Shown here: piece by piece, positions 215 to 12,104 of the stretch
Layout of the letters: each line of letters starts with the position of its first letter
How positions within the stretch are numbered: position 1 is the stretch's first letter
Virus record (IMG/VR): IMGVR_UViG_3300025146_000191
Span: 1 to 28,343 of that record
Strand: one strand, 5' to 3'
Origin: a virus
Length of the DNA stretch: 28,343 nucleotides
The notes under the pieces: model-generated
What the model was told of the DNA's origin: nothing
The model's input: the letters and a program-made list of their open reading frames with translations, nothing else
Databases searched by the model: none
Made by a program: the position numbers and the translations under genes

Positions 215-1030
215 TCAATTTCGATAAGGTTGTAATTTCCAATTCCCTTGCTTGTCCTTGTGCCACTCGATACTTTTTATATTATCGTCAACTAAAATAT
301 CGGCTTTTCTGGTCATGTGTATAACTCTCAAACCCCAATCAACCTTAGCCTCATAACCTAACTTACAAACATCCATTACAAAACAAACATCTGGCCCAAA
401 ACACTCCGCCTCATATCGGTACTTTATATTTTTATATAGATAGGCAGTAGTTAGATAACAATAAAACCCCCCACCGGTAATCGGTTCGATAAGATCGCTT
501 ATAAATCTAGGTGGCAACAATGTTTTCTGGGTTGTTGGATCATGAATGTTGTTTGTTACCCAAGCCCCCACCATTTTTATTCCATGCCTACCTGCCTCGA
601 CCCCCTCGACAAAGCCAATATCTTCGTCACCATCAATAGTCTCTCTAAGTTTTTGAAATGTGTTCGGCGGTACCAATGTATCATCCTCAAGTCCAAAAAC
701 ATATTCACCGGAAATCATCAATTTGCTTTTTTCTTTCATACCTACAATTCTGTTTCTCTGTACCGATATATTTGTTTCTAAAGGTGCGGGGTTGCCGCTA
801 ACAAAAAGTTTGCAACCATTAAACTCCTCTGCCTTTTCTTCCAGATATTCTCTGAGCCTTTTTATTAAAACTTCATTATCACTATCAACAAAAAAGTCCA
901 GTTCCGTTTCTTCTCTAGGTATAATTATACTACTTAAAGATGGTAAAAATCTATCCAAAGACCAATCTCTAGTGAAGGGAACAAACACGCTTATAAGCGG
1001 TCTTTCTGGGGCCTTTATGATTTCAAGCAT
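215..1030 (-). CDS. GT-A type glycosyltransferase (GT2-like), 271 aa
   Basis: The N-terminus (ISVFVPFTRDW, residues 13-23) is the start of a GT-A nucleotide-sugar binding fold. GLEDDTLVPP at 113-122 matches the metal-binding DxD region of family 2 enzymes. ITGGGFYCYLT near 183-193 is like the acceptor-loop region of such enzymes. The start overlaps the end of the upstream GT4-like gene by 16 nt, so the two are translationally coupled. It presumably transfers a sugar from a nucleotide donor to a glycan made by the neighbouring enzymes; donor and acceptor cannot be read from sequence. Confidence 0.78.
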   Translation of the reverse strand: MLEIIKAPERPLISVFVPFTRDWSLDRFLPSLSSIIIPREETELDFFVDSDNEVLIKRLREYLEEKAEEFNGCKLFVSGNPAPLETNISVQRNRIVGMKEKSKLMISGEYVFGLEDDTLVPPNTFQKLRETIDGDEDIGFVEGVEAGRHGIKMVGAWVTNNIHDPTTQKTLLPPRFISDLIEPITGGGFYCYLTTAYLYKNIKYRYEAECFGPDVCFVMDVCKLGYEAKVDWGLRVIHMTRKADILVDDNIKSIEWHKDKQGNWKLQPYRN

Positions 1031-2064
1031 AGGTCTTCAAACTCCTTTAAATACAAAGGGATTTGGTTTTCCCAACTTATTTTATCGGCCAGTTCATTTG
1101 AATAATCACTAAGTTCTTGAACTAAACTTGGTGTTTGGGCCAAAAGTTCTATCCTGTCCGCCAAGTCATGAGGACTACATTGGTAGCTTTCCATCTTCAT
1201 TCTGGTAAATATTGTTTTTACTGAGTTATATTTTATTAGTGATGCTGATTTTAAATACTGGTTTTGAGGAGTAATATCAGTCATTAAAGGTATCATACCG
1301 CAGCTTAATGCCTCATTCAACTGCAAACTAAGGCCGCCATATTTTCTCGGCAAAAGTAAAACGTCTTCGTCTTGATAAAGACTCCAATAATTATCCACGT
1401 CGCTATTTATTACCTTGACGTTATACTGACCCAATTCCGGTAACGGATGCTGACTGTAAATAATAAACTCCAAGTCTTTATTTTTAACCAACTTTATTGC
1501 TTCAAATACCGTTTGGGTTCCGTTTCTATCATCAAAGGTTTTATAGCCAGCTATATGCAGGAACTTCTTAGCTTGGGTTCTTTTCTTAAACGGAAGTAAT
1601 TTTCTGTTGACTGGTGCAGTTAGATACTTTACTAAGGTTTTATCGCCAAACTTTTGCCTTACCTCGTCAATTTTCCAAGTTGTCGGTGCGGCCAACATAT
1701 CTGGGTAAACCCAATCTGGCCTCAGGAAATAATCAAGGAACTCATAATTATATTGGTTTACTGTCTTGATATCCCTTTCCCTAGCCATGCTGTAAAGTTG
1801 ATAGCCATAGGGAGATTCAACTGTAAAAACCACATCCAAATCTTTAAGAAAACTGTCAAAGTCTGAATCGGTTGGGAAACCGTAAACAAACACTGCCTTT
1901 TCTGGATAGCGATCTGGATAATTTTTAGTAACCTTACCCATGTGCTGATTTACCCCTGTCATATCTATTACCAAAGTTTTATCCGGCTTCATATTCTTAT
2001 AAAATTCGTGGGTTTGTACCCCCACGCCAGTATTATCCATCCTAGCCAAAAGGCCGATTCTCAT
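1015..2064 (-). CDS. GT-B type glycosyltransferase (GT4-like), 349 aa
   Basis: It starts MRIGLLARMDNTGVGVQT, the usual N-terminal Rossmann strand and Gly loop of GT-B enzymes. The C-terminal half has FLHIAGYKTFDDRNG (168-182) and then GGLSLQLNEALSCGMIPL (243-260), the donor-binding E-x7-E type motif of GT4 (here the first Glu position is not obvious, while Glu251 is present). Length is typical of the family. Its ATG overlaps the stop of the two-domain transferase upstream by 4 nt (ATGA). Role in a glycan pathway is inferred from the family and context. Confidence 0.8.
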   Translation of the reverse strand: MRIGLLARMDNTGVGVQTHEFYKNMKPDKTLVIDMTGVNQHMGKVTKNYPDRYPEKAVFVYGFPTDSDFDSFLKDLDVVFTVESPYGYQLYSMARERDIKTVNQYNYEFLDYFLRPDWVYPDMLAAPTTWKIDEVRQKFGDKTLVKYLTAPVNRKLLPFKKRTQAKKFLHIAGYKTFDDRNGTQTVFEAIKLVKNKDLEFIIYSQHPLPELGQYNVKVINSDVDNYWSLYQDEDVLLLPRKYGGLSLQLNEALSCGMIPLMTDITPQNQYLKSASLIKYNSVKTIFTRMKMESYQCSPHDLADRIELLAQTPSLVQELSDYSNELADKISWENQIPLYLKEFEDLCLKS

Positions 2065-3752
2065 ATCATTTTCCCTTTCACAAACATTTTATACTTAGGC
2101 TCTGCCCCCCTGCCGTCCGTGTGGTAGCTTCTTTTCATGTCCCCTTCGGGTGCGTAAATCCAAACCTTCCAGTTATTCCAACCAGCCTTACCCAAGATTT
2201 TATAGCTTTCCATCAAAGGACTGTGGACAATGTCTTCAATCATTGTCTTGTCGCCAGCTTCAAAATACTTGTCAATCATTTGCCTATAAAACTCAGTTGA
2301 GGCAACATGGGGCCTTTGTGACCACTGCGAGGTTCTTACTAAAGGTATTCCGTGTATTGTTATTGGTTGTTTATCAAGCATCATATGTTTATGGACATCT
2401 AAAATAAGGGCTTCATGGTGAAGCCTTATCATGTTGGCCTCACCACTCCTAACTGTTTCTATTAAATTCTTAAACGGTATTTCTTGACAAAGCGGTGCAT
2501 CATGTTCGACAAACATAATAGTCGGAGTTCTGGCAAGTTTAAGGGCCTCTCTAGTCATGGCTGCTTGGTGTTTATGCTCTTCAAAAAAAAGCGGGACTAC
2601 ATTATGCCAAACAAAGTTAGTCCCCCAAAGTAATCTCCTAACATACTCATCATACTGACTTTTGAATTTCTTTTGTTCGTCCCTAACCCCATCAATCATC
2701 AATATTATCTCGCTATTTGGCAGTCGTTCCCTTATTGTGCTGATAGTTTCTTCAATCATAGAAGTGTCGGGATGGTTTATTATCGGGCTGGTAGGTATTA
2801 AAACAGTAATTAAATCCTTTAAATCATCTGTTATCGATTCTGTTTCCGCCAGATAATTTATATCGTCTGTTATTTGGTAGGCTAACTCTCGTTTTTTAAG
2901 CTGCCACCAAGCAAATATTTTATTGTTTATCGCAGGATAGCGATCAATCATGTTTACCATAACTCCTTTTAACTTCCGCCAATCGGTTATTACGGGAAAG
3001 GGAATGTCATCTCCGAATAGCTTTCGCCAGTAATTTGTCCTCTTATCGTCCTTCCTTGTTTTATCGTCAGCTATTGGTACACACCCCGACTCTAAAGCCT
3101 CATAAAACCTAAAGGTATCTGGTGTCTCCGGCCCCGAAGGACAAGGTGCAACCTTAGCCGAAGCCATATAATTGTAATATTCTTGGTGGGGCAAACCTTC
3201 GGTAAACTTTTCTGTCTCTACCAAATGACCGGTATATTTTTTATCCTTTTTTATACTAACTAAAGCCTTCTTACATTGCTGTCGCCTCGTGTGGGTTATC
3301 TGACCAGCAAAAAACCAATCAATACTCTTGTTAACCAACCCTGCTACTTTAATCAATTCTGGGGCATCTGGTGGCCACCCGTCACCCAAAAACCCATCTA
3401 CCGACTTGTGCCTGTCAAAGTTTGGAGTCATAACATAGGTTTTTATTCTTGGGTGGTTTATCTTTTCAACAGGAAATGTGGCTTCCTCATCACCGGCAAG
3501 TATCAAAATACACCACCTAAGTTTAGCCAAGTCTGAATTGATCTGGTCTATATCTTTAGCGTGATAACGAGCAGGTATAACTACAATGCCGTAGTCAAAA
3601 ACACTATCAAAATCGTCATGGTGTTCAAACTCGTAATCGCCTACAGGGTTCCAAATCTCTTTACTGAAAATATGCTCAATAATCCCCATGTCCCAATAAC
3701 CACGGTTGGGTGTTTCCTGGTGGTAACTTTTCCAAAAGACAGGCACTATCAT
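2061..3752 (-). CDS. Two-domain glycosyltransferase: exostosin-like plus GT-A, 563 aa
   Basis: The N-terminal half (about 1-290) ends with APCPSGPETPDTFRFYEALE at 202-221 followed by GCVPI, the signature of exostosin/GT47-like domains, where a conserved Glu and Gly-Cys-Val-Pro line the donor site. A second domain begins at about 314 (ITVLIPTSPI) and has IILMIDG (349-355) and VEHDAP (415-420), as in GT-A enzymes of the GT2 type. Two catalytic domains in one chain suggest alternating sugar addition, but this is inference. It overlaps both neighbours by 4 nt (ATGA), so the whole block is one coupled operon. Confidence 0.8.
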   Translation of the reverse strand: MIVPVFWKSYHQETPNRGYWDMGIIEHIFSKEIWNPVGDYEFEHHDDFDSVFDYGIVVIPARYHAKDIDQINSDLAKLRWCILILAGDEEATFPVEKINHPRIKTYVMTPNFDRHKSVDGFLGDGWPPDAPELIKVAGLVNKSIDWFFAGQITHTRRQQCKKALVSIKKDKKYTGHLVETEKFTEGLPHQEYYNYMASAKVAPCPSGPETPDTFRFYEALESGCVPIADDKTRKDDKRTNYWRKLFGDDIPFPVITDWRKLKGVMVNMIDRYPAINNKIFAWWQLKKRELAYQITDDINYLAETESITDDLKDLITVLIPTSPIINHPDTSMIEETISTIRERLPNSEIILMIDGVRDEQKKFKSQYDEYVRRLLWGTNFVWHNVVPLFFEEHKHQAAMTREALKLARTPTIMFVEHDAPLCQEIPFKNLIETVRSGEANMIRLHHEALILDVHKHMMLDKQPITIHGIPLVRTSQWSQRPHVASTEFYRQMIDKYFEAGDKTMIEDIVHSPLMESYKILGKAGWNNWKVWIYAPEGDMKRSYHTDGRGAEPKYKMFVKGKMI

Positions 3753-4420
3753 AATTTAAAAAGAATATTTGCTTGATTAAAATTCATTTCCCCATCAAAC
3801 CTTCTACCGTTTTTAAAAGCCTTATAACCGTATTCCATCAGTCTTTTATAAATATCTGGATAACTGTTATTAAAGACAGGACTAAATTCAATAAATAAAT
3901 TCCTGACTCTTTTTTCTTTCAACCAGTCTTGATATAAGTTGATTGCATAGACCTCGTTGCCTTCAATGTCTATTTTTATTAACTCTATAATAGTTTTGGC
4001 AGTTTTTAATTTTTCGATTTCACCATCAATCCAAATTGTGAATGTGCTTATTTTATCGACAACCGAATTTAAAATCGCATTGGCCTTTAAAGTCTTTATG
4101 TTTTCTTTATCGCCATCTATAGCTTTGACTTGATAGCCCATTTTTCCTGCCAATATTGAATACCAACCTATATGGCAACCAATATCAATAAGCAAATTAT
4201 TTCGATTGCCATTCTCTAAAATACCTTTGACTATTTCGGTCTCCGGTTTCTCCCAAGCACCCTCATTTATTAAAGTCCTAGATACATCATCTTTACCAGT
4301 ACAATAACCAGCAATATCTTTATATTTCTCGTAATCATAAACAAACATTGGCCCGACCCCAGTTTCGACTTTTAAAGTATCGTGTTTTTTATGCCCAGCT
4401 TGGCAAACGTTTCCTATCAT
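3749..4420 (-). CDS. FkbM-family SAM methyltransferase, 223 aa
   Basis: Counting from the chosen start, DIGCHIGWYS at about 79-88 is SAM-binding motif I and KIDIEGNEV at about 149-157 is the FkbM signature (DxEGxE). These enzymes O-methylate sugars and polyketides. I place the start at the ATG that overlaps the stop of the upstream methyltransferase by 4 nt (ATGA); an upstream in-frame TTG would add seven residues. It lies between another methyltransferase and a glycosyltransferase, which fits methylation of a glycan. Confidence 0.85.
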   Translation of the reverse strand: MIGNVCQAGHKKHDTLKVETGVGPMFVYDYEKYKDIAGYCTGKDDVSRTLINEGAWEKPETEIVKGILENGNRNNLLIDIGCHIGWYSILAGKMGYQVKAIDGDKENIKTLKANAILNSVVDKISTFTIWIDGEIEKLKTAKTIIELIKIDIEGNEVYAINLYQDWLKEKRVRNLFIEFSPVFNNSYPDIYKRLMEYGYKAFKNGRRFDGEMNFNQANILFKL

Positions 4421-5025
4421 AATTTTTTTGCTGTTACCCAAGTCCAGTTTTGATAAATTAAGCCCTTATCGTATTTTGTTATCACTAGGTCGTTCATATT
4501 AAGCCACTTAGATACCTCGTCTAATTGATAGTGGTGGCTCATTGGTTCGTGTTCGTTCCCTTCAATAAATTGGAATCTGAATACACCGTTTTTATTTAGG
4601 TGTTTTCCCACCTCTGATATATATGCTTTAATCCCACCTTCGTCTATATGTTGAAAAACCGTAACTGCATAAATAAAATCTGATTGATAATCATTAGGTA
4701 ACTTTCTCCCTTTGGTGTGCTGAAAACCTAAATTATTAACACTAGCTTCGATATTTTTAGCTCTGTTTTTAGCAATGTTTAACAAACCTTCTGATATATC
4801 AATACCTAGAACATTAGCTTGAGAAAATTTTAAAGCCGTGGGTATAGCCAATCTACCAACACCACAACCAATTTCTAATATAGCTTTTGGGGCAAAATCA
4901 AGGTCTTTAAATAAAATATCGATTTCTTCTTCAGTTGATATTTCCTTATCGTGCATTTCGCTATCGACATTTTTTGATTCAGCTTTTTGGTTCCAGTACT
5001 GTCTTTCAAAATTAACTCTTTTCAT
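4417..5025 (-). CDS. Class I SAM-dependent methyltransferase, 202 aa
   Basis: EIGCGVGRLAIPTAL at 51-65 is motif I, and VLGIDISEG at 72-80 carries the acidic residue that binds the SAM ribose. FIYAVTVFQHID further on matches motif IV/post-IV of Methyltransf_11/25-type enzymes. The family acts on many small molecules and sugars, so the substrate is not defined. It overlaps the FkbM-like gene upstream by 14 nt and the next one by 4 nt. Confidence 0.82.
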   Translation of the reverse strand: MKRVNFERQYWNQKAESKNVDSEMHDKEISTEEEIDILFKDLDFAPKAILEIGCGVGRLAIPTALKFSQANVLGIDISEGLLNIAKNRAKNIEASVNNLGFQHTKGRKLPNDYQSDFIYAVTVFQHIDEGGIKAYISEVGKHLNKNGVFRFQFIEGNEHEPMSHHYQLDEVSKWLNMNDLVITKYDKGLIYQNWTWVTAKKL

Positions 5026-5758
5026 AAAATAAATGAACCTCGTGTTGGTAATCTAGTAAGGTTTCTTTATACCCAAAGGCTTTAATCCAATTTCTTAAAT
5101 CGGTTAGGTACTCTTTATATTGGTGGAACATAAACTCTGGATGGCCACTAAGCCATATTTTAGGCTTGTGATTTCTTATAGTTTGTTCTGCTCCCCTTAA
5201 AACTTTCCACTCGCTGCCCTCTACGTCAAGAATAATTGCTGTCGGTGGTTTTAATCTTTTCGCTGTATTATCGATTTTATATTGTGGTAATCCATCTGCT
5301 TCTAAATATAATTCGCTAAACCCGTGTGCTTTTACAATTTTACCTTGTGAAAATATAGGCCAAGTATCTTTGCCATTTGCCCAGCCTATACCTTCGTATA
5401 ATTCTTTATCGGGATTTTTTGGTATTTGTTTTTCAACACTGCTTGCAAACCCAGCTAAAAGCCCCAATGGGCGTTTCAATTTGTTTGCTTTCCATACCGC
5501 TTTTATAACTGGCCAAGCCTTGTGGTTAGGTTCGTACAAGACAACTTCCGCCCCCCACATTTGACACAAGGCTGGCATCTCGCCCAACTCCGCACCAACG
5601 TAATAAACTACATCACCTTCACCAATATACTCGTGCATTGAACTTAATCTTTTCTTTTCCCAACCTTGCTTGGTAAACCATTCTAGCCTAGCCGCCCTAT
5701 GTTCTGGTAGTTTAATTTTAAACTGACCATTTATTAAAGTATCAATCATTTTTACCAT
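5012..5758 (-). CDS. FkbM-like SAM methyltransferase, 248 aa
   Basis: DVVYYVGAELGEMPALC (49-65) is a motif I with Ala-Glu in place of the usual Asn/His-x-Gly, VVLYEPN (72-78) is motif II, and AIILDVEGSEWKVL (174-187) is the FkbM signature. The degenerate motif I makes it more divergent than the other FkbM gene of the cassette. The ATG lies just inside a 25-codon ORF that overlaps it by 7 nt, so it may be coupled to it; a second ATG three codons in is possible. Likely a sugar O-methyltransferase. Confidence 0.75.
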   Translation of the reverse strand: MVKMIDTLINGQFKIKLPEHRAARLEWFTKQGWEKKRLSSMHEYIGEGDVVYYVGAELGEMPALCQMWGAEVVLYEPNHKAWPVIKAVWKANKLKRPLGLLAGFASSVEKQIPKNPDKELYEGIGWANGKDTWPIFSQGKIVKAHGFSELYLEADGLPQYKIDNTAKRLKPPTAIILDVEGSEWKVLRGAEQTIRNHKPKIWLSGHPEFMFHQYKEYLTDLRNWIKAFGYKETLLDYQHEVHLFYEKS

Positions 5759-5829
5759 TTATGTTTTCTTTCTTCTCTTACTACTCTGGGTTTATAAAAA
5801 TTATCTTCAATTGTTTTTGGGAACTCCAT
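5752..5829 (-). CDS. Possible 25-aa microprotein with strong RBS
   Basis: A GGAGG stands six bases before an ATG inside the 3' end of the CgeB-like gene, in another frame. The ORF runs 25 codons (MEFPKTIEDNFYKPR at its start, very basic at its end) and its TAA overlaps the ATG of the FkbM-like gene. It may encode a microprotein or act only as a coupling ORF that brings ribosomes to the methyltransferase start. No family recognised. Confidence 0.4.
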   Translation of the reverse strand: MEFPKTIEDNFYKPRVVREERKHKW

Positions 5830-6760
5830 TTATTACCTCCAATATTTTAGCCCACCTTTGTAAATAAGTGTGGTCTCTTTTTGTTCTTTCCGATCCTGCC
5901 CTTCTAATCTCCTCCCGTTCCTTTTTGTTTTCAACATAGTAATCAATCTTAGATTTTAAATCTTTGAAATCACCAAACTTAAAAGTAACAATTTCTTTTC
6001 CTATCTCGAAAAAATCCTCAATCCCTTTGATATACGGGTGGATAATAAAGCCGCCTCGGCCTGTCGTCTCAAAGATACGGTCACTTAGGTAGTTGGGGTA
6101 ATCAAAGTTTAAACACAAGGTATCGCCGATAACTACTTTAGATTCAGCATAAATCATATTCAACTCGTGTCCTCTAACCACCTTGATACCGTCACCACCA
6201 TAATGAAAAAACCTTTGACCGTAGGTTTCTCTAAGCCAATCAACAAGCTGTGGTCGCCACTGCCACTCAGGATGATAACCTCGGCTGCCTACAAACACCA
6301 CATCCTTATTTTGATTAACATTTTGGTTTAGATAACACTCTTGGTCAAATACTCCTGCCGCTAAATAATGACCTTTAACCGGCGTGTTTTTATTAAGCCA
6401 GTTGGCCATGTTCTTGTCGGCAGTAAAGAAATGTTGGATATTCCAGTAGTCCTCTGTTTCCATCTCCTTTTGTCTTTGAATCCCAAACCATAAATCCAGA
6501 TGATAAGTCAAGGTTGGTATATTACGGCTTTTCAATAATTTTAATAACTCTCGCATTGTTAAGACTCCGGGAGTATTCCACCCATGAGTATGTACCCAAA
6601 CAAATAAATCTGACCTGGAAGCGACCTCAAAAATCAATTCGCTGGTAGTGTTTCTTTCTTGCAGCTTAATAACTTCGTGACCAAGAGATTCTAAAGATTT
6701 AACATGGTGACTCTCGCTACTAAAATCTACACCGAAATTTCCTAAAAATGTTATTTTCAT
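5807..6760 (-). CDS. CgeB-like GT-B glycosyltransferase, 317 aa
   Basis: MKITFLGNFGVDFSSESHH opens a GT-B fold. KDVVFVGSRG at about 152-161 starts the second Rossmann domain, SDRIFETTGRGGFIIHP at about 226-242 is the donor-site region (E in the Glu-x-Gly-type loop), and RTKRDHTYLQRW near 292-303 is the C-terminal helix motif (R..x.HTY..R) typical of CgeB/DUF3880-like glycosyltransferases. A good RBS (AGAGGATAAAG) precedes the ATG. First glycosyltransferase of the cassette in transcription order. Confidence 0.8.
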   Translation of the reverse strand: MKITFLGNFGVDFSSESHHVKSLESLGHEVIKLQERNTTSELIFEVASRSDLFVWVHTHGWNTPGVLTMRELLKLLKSRNIPTLTYHLDLWFGIQRQKEMETEDYWNIQHFFTADKNMANWLNKNTPVKGHYLAAGVFDQECYLNQNVNQNKDVVFVGSRGYHPEWQWRPQLVDWLRETYGQRFFHYGGDGIKVVRGHELNMIYAESKVVIGDTLCLNFDYPNYLSDRIFETTGRGGFIIHPYIKGIEDFFEIGKEIVTFKFGDFKDLKSKIDYYVENKKEREEIRRAGSERTKRDHTYLQRWAKILEVINGVPKNN

Positions 6761-6817
6761 TCTTTATCCTCTAAATTACTTTTCTTTGGTTTCATAATAA
6801 ACCTGCAAGGATACCCA

Positions 6818-7411
6818 CTAATTTATTTGTGGGAGGAATTGCAGCCTTTCTTTGTTTGCTTGATAAAATGCTCGAGCAAACCCTTGTGGGGTAATTGCTC
6901 TCCTATCGGCTACTGTCAGCCCTTTGAACTTAGGTAGTGGTCTTGTATTTTGCATTGAGTCCCTTACTTCTTTTGGTGTCAAAGTAACTGGCTTTCTTAC
7001 TGGGAAGTTGAAGTATCCCCATAAATCTGTTCTCTTTTTGTATCTATCTCCAAAGTCATAAGGTTGAAAGATAAATGGTGGTTTACCTAGAAATTGTCTA
7101 AGGTAGGCTGTAGGGTTCTCTAATGCCCAGAACTTCAAGTCTCCTCTTGCTCTGGCAGCCCAGATTAGTTCCAAACAGGCTTTCACTACTTCCATACCTT
7201 TCTCAAAATCTCTTGGAGTCTTTGCAGTTGTTCTTGCTAAACTAAACATTGTGCAAGGTGGGGCAGCTAGTATGCCCACAACTGGTTCTTCTGGTAGTTT
7301 GTAAGTCATAACATCATATTCTGGTAAGGTAACATTGATAACTTTATAACCTGCTTCTACCCAAGGCTTACTCCAACTTCCTGTTCCTCCGCATAAGTCT
7401 AGGATAACCAC
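6818..7411 (-). CDS. Short C5-type DNA cytosine methyltransferase, 197 aa
   Basis: ILDLCGGTGSWSKPW (3-17) is SAM motif I, AAPPCTMFSLA (49-59) is motif IV with catalytic Cys53 after Pro, and ENP at 98-100 is the motif VI Glu-Asn pair. RTDLWG near 127-132 is like motif VIII of phage relatives. The protein is much shorter than cellular C5 enzymes and shows no separate target-recognition domain or motifs IX-X. The start is GTG, one base overlapping a TAG, with AAGGGAG about ten bases upstream. It may protect phage DNA from host restriction. Its place just before the sugar cassette leaves a role in DNA modification open. Confidence 0.78.
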   Translation of the reverse strand: MVILDLCGGTGSWSKPWVEAGYKVINVTLPEYDVMTYKLPEEPVVGILAAPPCTMFSLARTTAKTPRDFEKGMEVVKACLELIWAARARGDLKFWALENPTAYLRQFLGKPPFIFQPYDFGDRYKKRTDLWGYFNFPVRKPVTLTPKEVRDSMQNTRPLPKFKGLTVADRRAITPQGFARAFYQANKERLQFLPQIN

Positions 7412-10301: not shown

Positions 10302-10611
10302 AACCCTGTGTCAACTTGTTTCTTATTTCTTCAATTTTTTTCCTAGCTTTTAGTCTTTCCTCCGGTGTTTGCTGGGGATATTTTTCTGGAGCCGTTAGTT
10401 GGTTTTCTATTTGTCTGCTTTCAAGTGACCACGAAACAATATGTGATAATTTAAAACCGCCTTCTTTTAACTCAATGAAGCCCGACTCCCCCTGAATCAA
10501 CCTTCTTTTTATCTGCTCTAACTCCTCGCCGGTAACCTGATATTCTTTTCTTGTAGAAAGCTGGATTGTCCAAAGCTCACGATATTTTGGTATAGCTGTA
10601 TTTTCTACCAT
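10297..10611 (-). CDS. Early protein, 104 aa, unknown
   Basis: The ATG has AAAGGGG nine bases upstream; in-frame codons further 5' lie within the end of the replication gene. The product begins MVENTAIPKYRELWTIQL. Its middle reads as a beta-rich segment (SGFIELKEGGFKLSHIVSW), and its C-terminus (residues 75-104) is a charged helix. It follows the replication gene with overlap, so may assist replication. No family recognised. Confidence 0.6.
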   Translation of the reverse strand: MVENTAIPKYRELWTIQLSTRKEYQVTGEELEQIKRRLIQGESGFIELKEGGFKLSHIVSWSLESRQIENQLTAPEKYPQQTPEERLKARKKIEEIRNKLTQGL

Positions 10612-11200
10612 TTTCTTGACCCCTTTCTTTAATCTTTCTAATATCACGCAATACAAAATTACGCAATGCGGCTTTTAAATCTTTATATCTCTTTCCGCTA
10701 GAAGCCACATAATTATCTAAAGCCTCTTTTTGATAACGTACAAACGCAATAGGTACACCGTATCGTTCTGCTGTTTCCAATAAGTCTTGTTCTGTTAAGG
10801 GGGAGATAATAGAGGGGGTTATTTCTTTCTTCTTACTTCTTTCTTCTTTAGTAGTGTTAATTTGTTGTATGTTTTGCTGTTCGTTTGTTGCATAGTTTGA
10901 TTGATACTTATCATAATTATTGATTGTTATATATGTGTGTTTGTTGTCTGTTTTGATGTTAACCTGGTGTTTAAGTTGTTGTATAAGTAGGTGTCTAACA
11001 GTTAGTCGGTTCCAACCCCACCTTTCGGATAGGTATTTTTGAGTTGTTTTTAGTTCTCCACGCTTACAAAAATCAGTATCTTTATAGTTGGCGAGAAATA
11101 TTAAGTCTATCCAAGCCTGGCCTTTACTAAAGGGCCGGTCTTTCCATATCTCATTATCAATTATTTTTCTGAAAACTTTTATCCAGCCGTTATTGTCCAT
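10577..11200 (-). CDS. Replication initiator/replisome organiser-like protein, 207 aa
   Basis: The chosen ATG (11200) gives MDNNGWIKVFRKIIDNEIW then KGQAWIDLIFLANYKD, the classic start of phage replisome-organiser N-domains. A winged helix follows with TQKYLSERWGWNRLTVRHLL (about 51-70). A low-complexity linker (about 95-130, rich in N, Q, T, K) leads to a C-terminal helix set ending in LRNFVLRDIRKI. A longer ORF upstream (37 codons) runs through the leader hairpins and is not used. The SD-like AGAGGG is eight bases before the ATG and is buried in a hairpin. It probably binds the origin and recruits the helicase. Confidence 0.72.
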   Translation of the reverse strand: MDNNGWIKVFRKIIDNEIWKDRPFSKGQAWIDLIFLANYKDTDFCKRGELKTTQKYLSERWGWNRLTVRHLLIQQLKHQVNIKTDNKHTYITINNYDKYQSNYATNEQQNIQQINTTKEERSKKKEITPSIISPLTEQDLLETAERYGVPIAFVRYQKEALDNYVASSGKRYKDLKAALRNFVLRDIRKIKERGQENGRKYSYTKIS

Positions 11201-11201
11201 C

Positions 11202-11298
11202 AAAAAAGCCCTCTTTATGCTGCGGGGAGTTGTCACACTCGCTTGCGGAATACCCGCAGCCCAAAGAAGGCTTTTAGTGTGACAGTTTACTTCCGCAA
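11202..11298 (-). promoter_or_regulatory. Structured leader with competing helices before replication gene
   Basis: The leader contains four inverted pairs. (a) AAAGCCTTCTTT (11263-11274) pairs with AAAGAGGGCTTT (11205-11216), and inside it GCTGCGGG (minus strand, 11253-11260) pairs with CCCGCAGC (11219-11226); this long hairpin ends in TTTTTT two bases before the ATG and contains the AGAGGG RBS. (b) TGTCACACT (11276-11284) pairs with AGTGTGACA (11231-11239). (c) TTGCGGAA (11291-11298) pairs with TTCCGCAA (11243-11250). (b) and (c) together form a pseudoknot. (b) interleaves with (a), so both cannot form together without crossing. No leader peptide is visible. Confidence 0.6.
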
Positions 11299-11302
11299 TC
11301 AA

Positions 11303-11331
11303 AATATACACTACTCATTTTCAAATGTCAA
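11303..11331 (-). promoter_or_regulatory. Strong sigma70-like early promoter
   Basis: Perfect TTGACA (11326-11331), 17-base spacer, TATATT (11303-11308). Transcription would begin near 11296 and run through the structured leader into the replication gene. Best promoter match in the window. Confidence 0.75.
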
Positions 11332-11395: not shown

Positions 11396-11593
11396 GTGAA
11401 GTTCTACGCAACCGTAGTTGTCAGGACTGGCTGGAACCCAACCGAACTGACTACCTATGATTTCGGTTCGGTTTCGCTGAAAATACTCTTGAGGAAAGTG
11501 GCCGAGATTATCAACGAAAACACGCTTTTGGTTGATATGCACCTATGGAACGATAACAAAAGGAATGAGATTGTCAAAGCAAGAGGAGATTAG
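11396..11593 (+). CDS. Only plus-strand gene: 65-aa protein, unknown
   Basis: AAAGGAG lies eight bases before a GTG. The product (starting MKFYATVVVRTGWNPTELT) has a strand-rich N-terminal half and a C-terminal half with a helix and SLKILLRKVAEIIN. The RBS, the upstream inverted repeat and the downstream terminator on the same strand all support this reading over the opposite-strand ORF. It faces away from the replication operon and converges on the 3D gene. Such lone counter-strand genes at an early/late border are often regulators, but no HTH is visible here. Confidence 0.6.
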   Translation: MKFYATVVVRTGWNPTELTTYDFGSVSLKILLRKVAEIINENTLLVDMHLWNDNKRNEIVKARGD

Positions 11594-11620
11594 TATAATT
11601 ATACTGTCCGTTGTTTCCAC

Positions 11621-11648
11621 AGAAGGCTCTGCTGCCCTAGAGTCTTCT
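11621..11648 (+). terminator. Rho-independent terminator of the plus-strand gene
   Basis: AGAAGGCTCT pairs with AGAGTCTTCT (ten pairs, one G-U) around an 8-base loop, followed by TATTTTC. It overlaps the stop codon region of the convergent 3D gene. On the minus strand the stem has one mismatch and no T-run. Confidence 0.5.
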
Positions 11649-12104
11649 TATTTTCAATACCCTTCGGCCCCAAGCTATAGCGTCATCATAATTTGGAAAG
11701 TAAACGTCAATCTTGTTGCCCTTTATAGCACCACCCCTATCAAGAACCGTACAAATCCCATAGCCAGGTATTTCAAATTTTGTCCCAAAAGGATAAACAG
11801 GGTCGGCAGCACAGATTCCATAAGCAACCCTAGCCCCGGAAGCGGTGTAGTACCCCGTCCCTTCTTGCTGGCTGGTGCTGTAACCAGTTACGCTATAAAA
11901 GCCGTTAGGGGCGACCACAGGGCCTCTGGCAAGCATTTGTGGTTTTGGAGTATATTTTTTAGATTTTATGGATACTGTTATTACAGGCCCTTGATATTCT
12001 GCGGGTTTTGGGGTTTGCCTAGTTTGGTTTTCGGCTGCCGTATCTCCGTTAAATATTAAAACTAGGAAAATAATCAGGAGATACGGTAAGAAAATTCTAT
12101 ACAA
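11637..12104 (-). CDS. 3D-domain peptidoglycan enzyme, 155 aa
   Basis: The TTG start gives a hydrophobic N-terminal anchor or signal peptide (FLPYLLIIFLVLIF, about 5-18). After a Pro-rich linker comes the 3D domain: TASGARVAYGICAADP (87-102), PFGTKFEIPGYG (105-116) and VLDRGGAIKGNKIDVYFP (120-137). Asp101, Asp122 and Asp133 are the three conserved Asp of the family, which shares the barrel of MltA-type lytic transglycosylases. Likely cuts peptidoglycan during lysis or at the cell envelope. The -10 box nine bases upstream suggests its own promoter and an almost leaderless message. Confidence 0.8.
   Translation of the reverse strand: MYRIFLPYLLIIFLVLIFNGDTAAENQTRQTPKPAEYQGPVITVSIKSKKYTPKPQMLARGPVVAPNGFYSVTGYSTSQQEGTGYYTASGARVAYGICAADPVYPFGTKFEIPGYGICTVLDRGGAIKGNKIDVYFPNYDDAIAWGRRVLKIRRL

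Follow-up and report, generated by a model that had tools for sequence, protein, structure and literature searches.

Replication-gene attenuators of plasmids of the pT181 and pIP501 type need a convergent antisense RNA, and in phage P4 the processed antisense RNA lies between its two targets. Turning to phage leaders (for the plasmid type, see PMC4981023), the IsrK/orf45-anrP leader of the Salmonella prophage Gifsy-1 has a phage promoter, a structured, terminator-ended leader, and alternative helices, and its read-through mRNA is translationally inactive through structure (PMC4825925). As summarized in that source, premature termination via RNA pairing in the P4 immunity leader (CI RNA, seqA/seqC) controls the replication operon (PMC4825925). 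The c4 antisense RNA of P1/P7 carries loop segments a' and b' along with two matching targets (PMC5320573; PMC2864571).

Here, we scrutinized a 28,343-base IMG/VR virus record, the whole of which is termed the window, and describe a minus-strand leader of ~97 nt (roughly 100) between a promoter and a DnaD-like gene. The leader resembles IsrK in its phage promoter, its terminator-ended leader, its alternative helices and, as proposed here, structure-masked translation; however, IsrK pairs with the downstream orf45, whereas all pairing arms here lie within ~97 nt 5' of the ATG. With P4, as far as the summary cited above describes it, the locus shares the leader of a phage replication operon and putative termination by RNA pairing, but the window leader has a putative intrinsic terminator ending at the ATG. 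As in c4, two loop segments are accompanied by two matching target segments, although RF01695 was not matched and the three-stem-loop c4 fold of PMC5320573 was not seen in the leader. Like pT181 and pIP501, the locus has a replication-gene leader with a terminator just 5' of the gene that is rivalled by upstream helices. Unlike them, it has no promoter-like site on the + strand at the scan threshold within 11202-11300; a TTGTCC-17-TATGCT site (8/12) noted by eye is below that threshold. To our knowledge, none of IsrK, P4, c4, or the plasmid rep attenuators has three mutually interleaved helices. The elements of the window, L057, L044, and L062 gave no Rfam match at curated score, including isrK and c4; the best match in the window was sau-19, at 24 bits against a cutoff of 80. 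A literature search, which was not exhaustive, returned no description of such an element. The element would belong among phage leader attenuators, a known kind.

Three interleaved helices in the leader of an early operon

The features of the locus, all on the minus strand, are as follows.

11303..11331, minus strand: promoter TTGACA-17-TATATT, 11/12 consensus (-35 TTGACA 11331-11326; 17-nt spacer; -10 TATATT 11308-11303), predicted +1 about 11296-11299
11291..11298, minus strand: arm A (UUGCGGAA; pair listing TTGCGGAA), extreme 5' end of the transcript
11276..11284, minus strand: arm B (UGUCACACU; pair listing TGTCACACT), from the inverted-pair search
11253..11275, minus strand: arm C, 5' strand of the putative terminator/RBS hairpin, from the inverted-pair search and folding
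11243..11250, minus strand: arm A' (UUCCGCAA; pair listing TTCCGCAA), inside the C/C' loop
11231..11239, minus strand: arm B' (AGUGUGACA; pair listing AGTGTGACA), inside the C/C' loop
11204..11226, minus strand: arm C', 3' strand of the putative terminator hairpin, carrying the Shine-Dalgarno sequence AGAGGG (11209-11214)
11202..11207, minus strand: U6 run right after the hairpin, overlapping the end of C'
10577..11200, minus strand: DnaD-like helicase-loader gene, 207 aa, opening the leftward early operon (phrog_2514, E 7e-18)

Arm A starts at the predicted +1 or a few bases off. A/A' and B/B' are perfect helices of 8 and 9 bp, and C/C' (23 nt) is 87% complementary, or higher with G.U counted. 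The arm order A-B-C-A'-B'-C' means that each helix is interleaved with both others. A stable, G+C-containing hairpin is followed directly by the U-run 5' of the gene, whose ATG (11200-11198) lies just past U6, and the upstream helix and the terminator are mutually exclusive in silico. A preliminary description of this DNA had the promoter and leader coordinates right, as it did the long hairpin that buries the RBS and ends in six T before the ATG. The competing inverted pairs it reported are complete and exceed chance, the 9-bp and 8-bp extra perfect pairs occurring together in 0.08% of dinucleotide shuffles. When the 5' segment was paired with the C loop in A-B order, the score was 17, a value reached in 0/3000 shuffles, and B/B' with A/A' fixed had P = 5e-5. 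The leader had a fold z of -5.3, and 0/200 shuffles were equally stable. The pseudoknot that it proposed to interleave with the hairpin held as regards interleaving, which applies to all three helices mutually, but A and B together are perhaps sterically strained by a 3-nt A'-B' linker and are not required to coexist.

The start of the DnaD-like gene is backed by a homologue, L004, beginning MDNNGWIK. We rejected the possibility that the DnaD-like protein is extended N-terminally through the leader, since the alternative start, at 11311, lies 5' of the predicted +1 and L004 begins MDNNGW. Among 50,697 phage records, searches at the nucleotide and protein levels gave no leader homologue and only distant homologues of the gene (<41% identity). 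In six known phages (Enterococcus, Anoxybacillus, two Staphylococcus, and two Vibrio), a DnaD-like gene is internal to an operon, where the gaps are about 15-55 nt, and has no such leader. In two strains, L002 and L003, the leader is identical to that of the window and hence uninformative.

The arm order recurs in an unrelated phage

A gapped pattern built from the window and L044 (promoter -10, ATTGCG, CGCAA, and CTTTTT) was run over 2.9 million viral contigs and yielded one further real case, L057, among eight stretches. L057 and L062 are one phage whose structural genes differ from those of the window, and it carries two full elements. In L057_1, A (ATTGCGGT), B (TATCGAA; 14 bp with G.U and flanks), and C are followed by A' (ACCGCAAT), B' (TTCGATA), C', and then TTTTTTAATG, such that the six-arm order of the window is kept while the B and C sequences are replaced; the promoter spacing and TATATTTTGATTGCGG of the window are also present in L057. 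Since the pattern demanded the -10, ATTGCG, CGCAA, and CTTTTT, A/A' and the -10 and CTTTTT positions of L057_1 were partly selected, whereas B/B' and C/C' pairing and the arm order lay outside the selection. The second element, L062_2 (L062 6059-5896, minus strand; promoter TTGACA-17-TGTATT), was found by a sequence-independent scan requiring a hairpin with a U-run plus one loop pairing; its A/A' was thus partly selected for, whereas no selection acted on the second pairing, the arm order, the promoter, or the ATG. Here A (ACTTTCGGTAA), B (CAATCAAG), and a C of 27 nt precede A', B', C', T7, and the ATG of a 70-aa Zn-ribbon ORF, and the element has no sequence in common with the others.

L044, a relative of the window via its ERF-like protein, lacks the DnaD gene, and an element opens the corresponding operon. 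Its promoter is TTTACT-18-TATAAT (by eye), and the 5' end, ATTGCGTAG, matches by complementarity the loop of a terminator hairpin of 27 nt, after which comes U5-AATG. It is a two-helix variant: its A helix is extended by nested GUAGG/CCUAC, leaving two interleaved helices, and its ordered-pairing score was not significant in the strict test applied to all elements. In every element, the predicted +1 falls on A or within about 4 nt of it and the ATG directly follows the U-run; a Shine-Dalgarno sequence lies inside C' in the window and L057_1, with no clear one in C' of L062_2 or L044. The ORFs after the L057_1 and L044 elements have 18 and 25 codons only, and what follows the element in L057 and L044 is noncoding, structured early sequence and not a long gene. 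Judged from sequence, the element is a marker of predicted transcription-unit starts irrespective of the first gene. The link to a replication gene drawn in the preliminary description is not supported: the other elements precede a Zn-ribbon ORF or noncoding early leaders, and the DnaD-like genes of the six known phages have no leader of this kind.

Ordered A-B pairing in the three full elements scored 17, 15, and 19 (0/3000 shuffles each), and the conditional P of B/B' given A/A' was 5e-5, 0.02 (5e-5 with G.U), and 4.5e-4. Apart from short matches, the arms of one element did not pair with the loops of a different one. Fold z was about -5 in all four elements, and the RNA strand was more stable than its complement by 5 to 13 kcal/mol in 4/4 (-42.4/-33.8, -34.6/-29.5, -41.4/-31.4, and -39.2/-26.7), favoring an RNA over a DNA function. 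Against a background of 38 further viral-contig stretches and a reversed-sequence control, the promoter-free descriptor was at background below a score of about 16 (1.02 Mb), whereas strong matches in a promoter-anchored scan of 1.02 Mb were these elements only; the remaining matches, two real and three control, had weaker promoters (9/12) and weaker hairpins. No element was found by the pattern search in 392 prokaryote genomes (one phylum), in two Manatee Spring phages whose capsids relate them to L057, or in L038 (a 63% capsid relative), and relatives by capsid and by ERF-like protein lack the DnaD gene. The check on conservation and covariation thus did not refute the preliminary description: in two full elements of another phage, A, B, and C remain paired even though their letters differ. 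Because an unrelated phage has the same layout in different letters, the window leader is probably a real, undescribed RNA switch and not chance.

A scan of viral contigs for the B motif returned mostly unrelated palindromes. Several unrelated viral contigs (L007, L010, L021, L022, and L023) have intergenic clusters of the word GTGTGACA, possibly operator arrays. Further interleaved pairs of 1-2-1'-2' order were seen by eye in noncoding sequence after the element at L044:3900-4226 (+), for example GCGACA/CUAGUG/UGUCGC/CACUAG, and at L057:14376-14575 (+), where they end in a clear terminator ahead of a 93-aa gene. A strongly folded, two-domain RNA of ~170 nt lies 3' of a small ORF at L044:3600-3778 (+) and L038:16203-16366 (-), with z of -4.4 and -4.7, a pyrimidine/U run at its end, and no Rfam match; a kissing interaction could form between its loops, CACCCCC and GGGGCGG/GCGGGG, and the window lacks this RNA. 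Between small early genes at L044:5145-5228, an 11-bp perfect inverted pair, CTCTCCTGTAG/CTACAGGAGAG, encloses a GCCGG hairpin.

Folding order and proposed mechanism

Minimum-energy structures of growing transcripts, with pseudoknots disallowed, gave the same order in each full element. In the window, the favored helix was A/A' for transcripts of 56-64 nt, B/B' for those of 68-88 nt, and C/C' from about 92 nt; the corresponding lengths were 52-60, 64-84, and from 88 nt in L057_1, and 84-88, 92-116, and from 120 nt in L062_2. In 3/3, every later helix excluded its predecessor. Taken with the sequence, the arm order, its recurrence with changed letters, and the promoter and U-run positions, this thermodynamic order by transcript length is consistent with a leader attenuator that acts in cis on the early operon and is paced by transcription order, the early helices holding back the terminator/RBS hairpin; we consider that the element may well work in this manner, the chances standing about even. 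As the RNA emerges, A' would pair with A first, B' would next pair with B and displace A/A', and C' would last pair with C, displacing both A/A' and B/B'. C/C' would be the intrinsic terminator, its 3' strand also carrying the ribosome-binding site. With B/B' in place, C would be trapped in the B/B' loop and the RBS open, so that RNA polymerase would be likelier to pass the U-run and ribosomes to reach the RBS. The contest between B/B' and the terminator would be timed to RNA polymerase sitting on the U-run, and C/C', once formed, would stop transcription or close the RBS; termination, antitermination, delay, and RBS closure are the predicted in vivo consequences.

Alternative explanations

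The main rival to the cis attenuator is action in trans, IsrK- or P4-like, whereby the element would be both small RNA and leader: putative terminated RNAs of ~97 nt, with A'/B' exposed in the C/C' loop, would act on A/B of new transcripts and render the early operon self-limiting or self-activating, as in Gifsy-1 IsrK or P4 immunity. A terminated product would be compact, with a free A/B tail and a free A'/B' loop; the L057 and L044 elements precede noncoding structured early sequence; and the arms are element-specific, as immunity specificity would predict. Precedents are IsrK (PMC4825925), the P4 CI RNA seqA/seqC as cited there, and the c4 loops a'/b' (PMC5320573). Nevertheless, intermolecular pairing of A-B with A'-B' is topologically awkward and Rfam gave no match to isrK or c4, and we regard trans action as possible though unlikely. 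A role in processing or stability, with RNase III cleaving the long hairpin or A/A' shielding the 5' end from RNase J or RppH, would suit the imperfect 23-bp stem and a 5' end paired in A/A' that is able to coexist with C/C', but leaves B/B', the interleaved order, and the U-run unexplained and is distinctly unlikely.

Competition between pseudoknot and terminator is a usual layout among riboswitches; on that reading, the A/A'-B/B' pseudoknot would be an aptamer and C/C' the expression platform. The lack of a conserved unpaired core disfavors this reading, almost all bases of L057_1 being in arms and its B wholly changed, as do two elements of one phage without common sequence and the lack of an Rfam match; a ligand-binding riboswitch is the least probable of the readings and scarcely credible. 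Of the riboswitch-like or protein-controlled attenuator first suggested, the attenuator-like RNA is supported by its recurrent pairing with changed letters, but nothing was found for a ligand or protein. The suggestion of origin dyads, or more broadly of a DNA-level signal including protein-binding inverted repeats, draws on the position ahead of a helicase-loader gene and on the recurrence of the B arm motif in intergenic DNA of other phages. It is very unlikely, given the strand asymmetry with G.U pairs, the U-run, and the anchoring to promoter +1. L062 has two copies of different sequence, each at a promoter +1 with a U-run and one distant from replication genes; the inverted-pair search showed no iterons, and other elements precede unrelated genes.

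A class defined by arm order

We tentatively propose, at less than even confidence, a class of phage RNA device whose defining feature is the arm order A-B-C-A'-B'-C' and not sequence: a three-step folding cascade from the first transcribed base that would time or self-limit early genes, its terminated copies possibly serving in trans as sequence-specific immunity RNAs. The proposal is based on the window plus a pair of full elements from a single unrelated phage, or three lineages when the two-helix L044 is included. Structured-RNA searches depend on conserved sequence and nested helices; with all helices interleaved and the sequence free to change, such elements would be missed by Rfam-type models and ordinary folding, and hence phages may contain more of them than these three lineages suggest. 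If true, this would be a compact natural case of programmed sequential strand displacement in nascent RNA.

Surroundings of the leader in the window

A divergent ORF of ~64 aa (window 11397-11594, +) has a good RBS, a promoter overlapping that of the leader, and a terminator at 11621-11648; one difference between strains was seen in this ORF, apparently synonymous, and the product is possibly a small regulator. At 11571-11650 (+), TTGTCA-17-TATAAT (11/12) lies ~20 nt before the same terminator, and its transcript would be ~45 nt. Elsewhere, genes resembling glycosyltransferases and methyltransferases occupy ~7 kb (window 215-7411, -; annotated by eye); they are conserved in the relative L038 and are an unusual load for a small phage.
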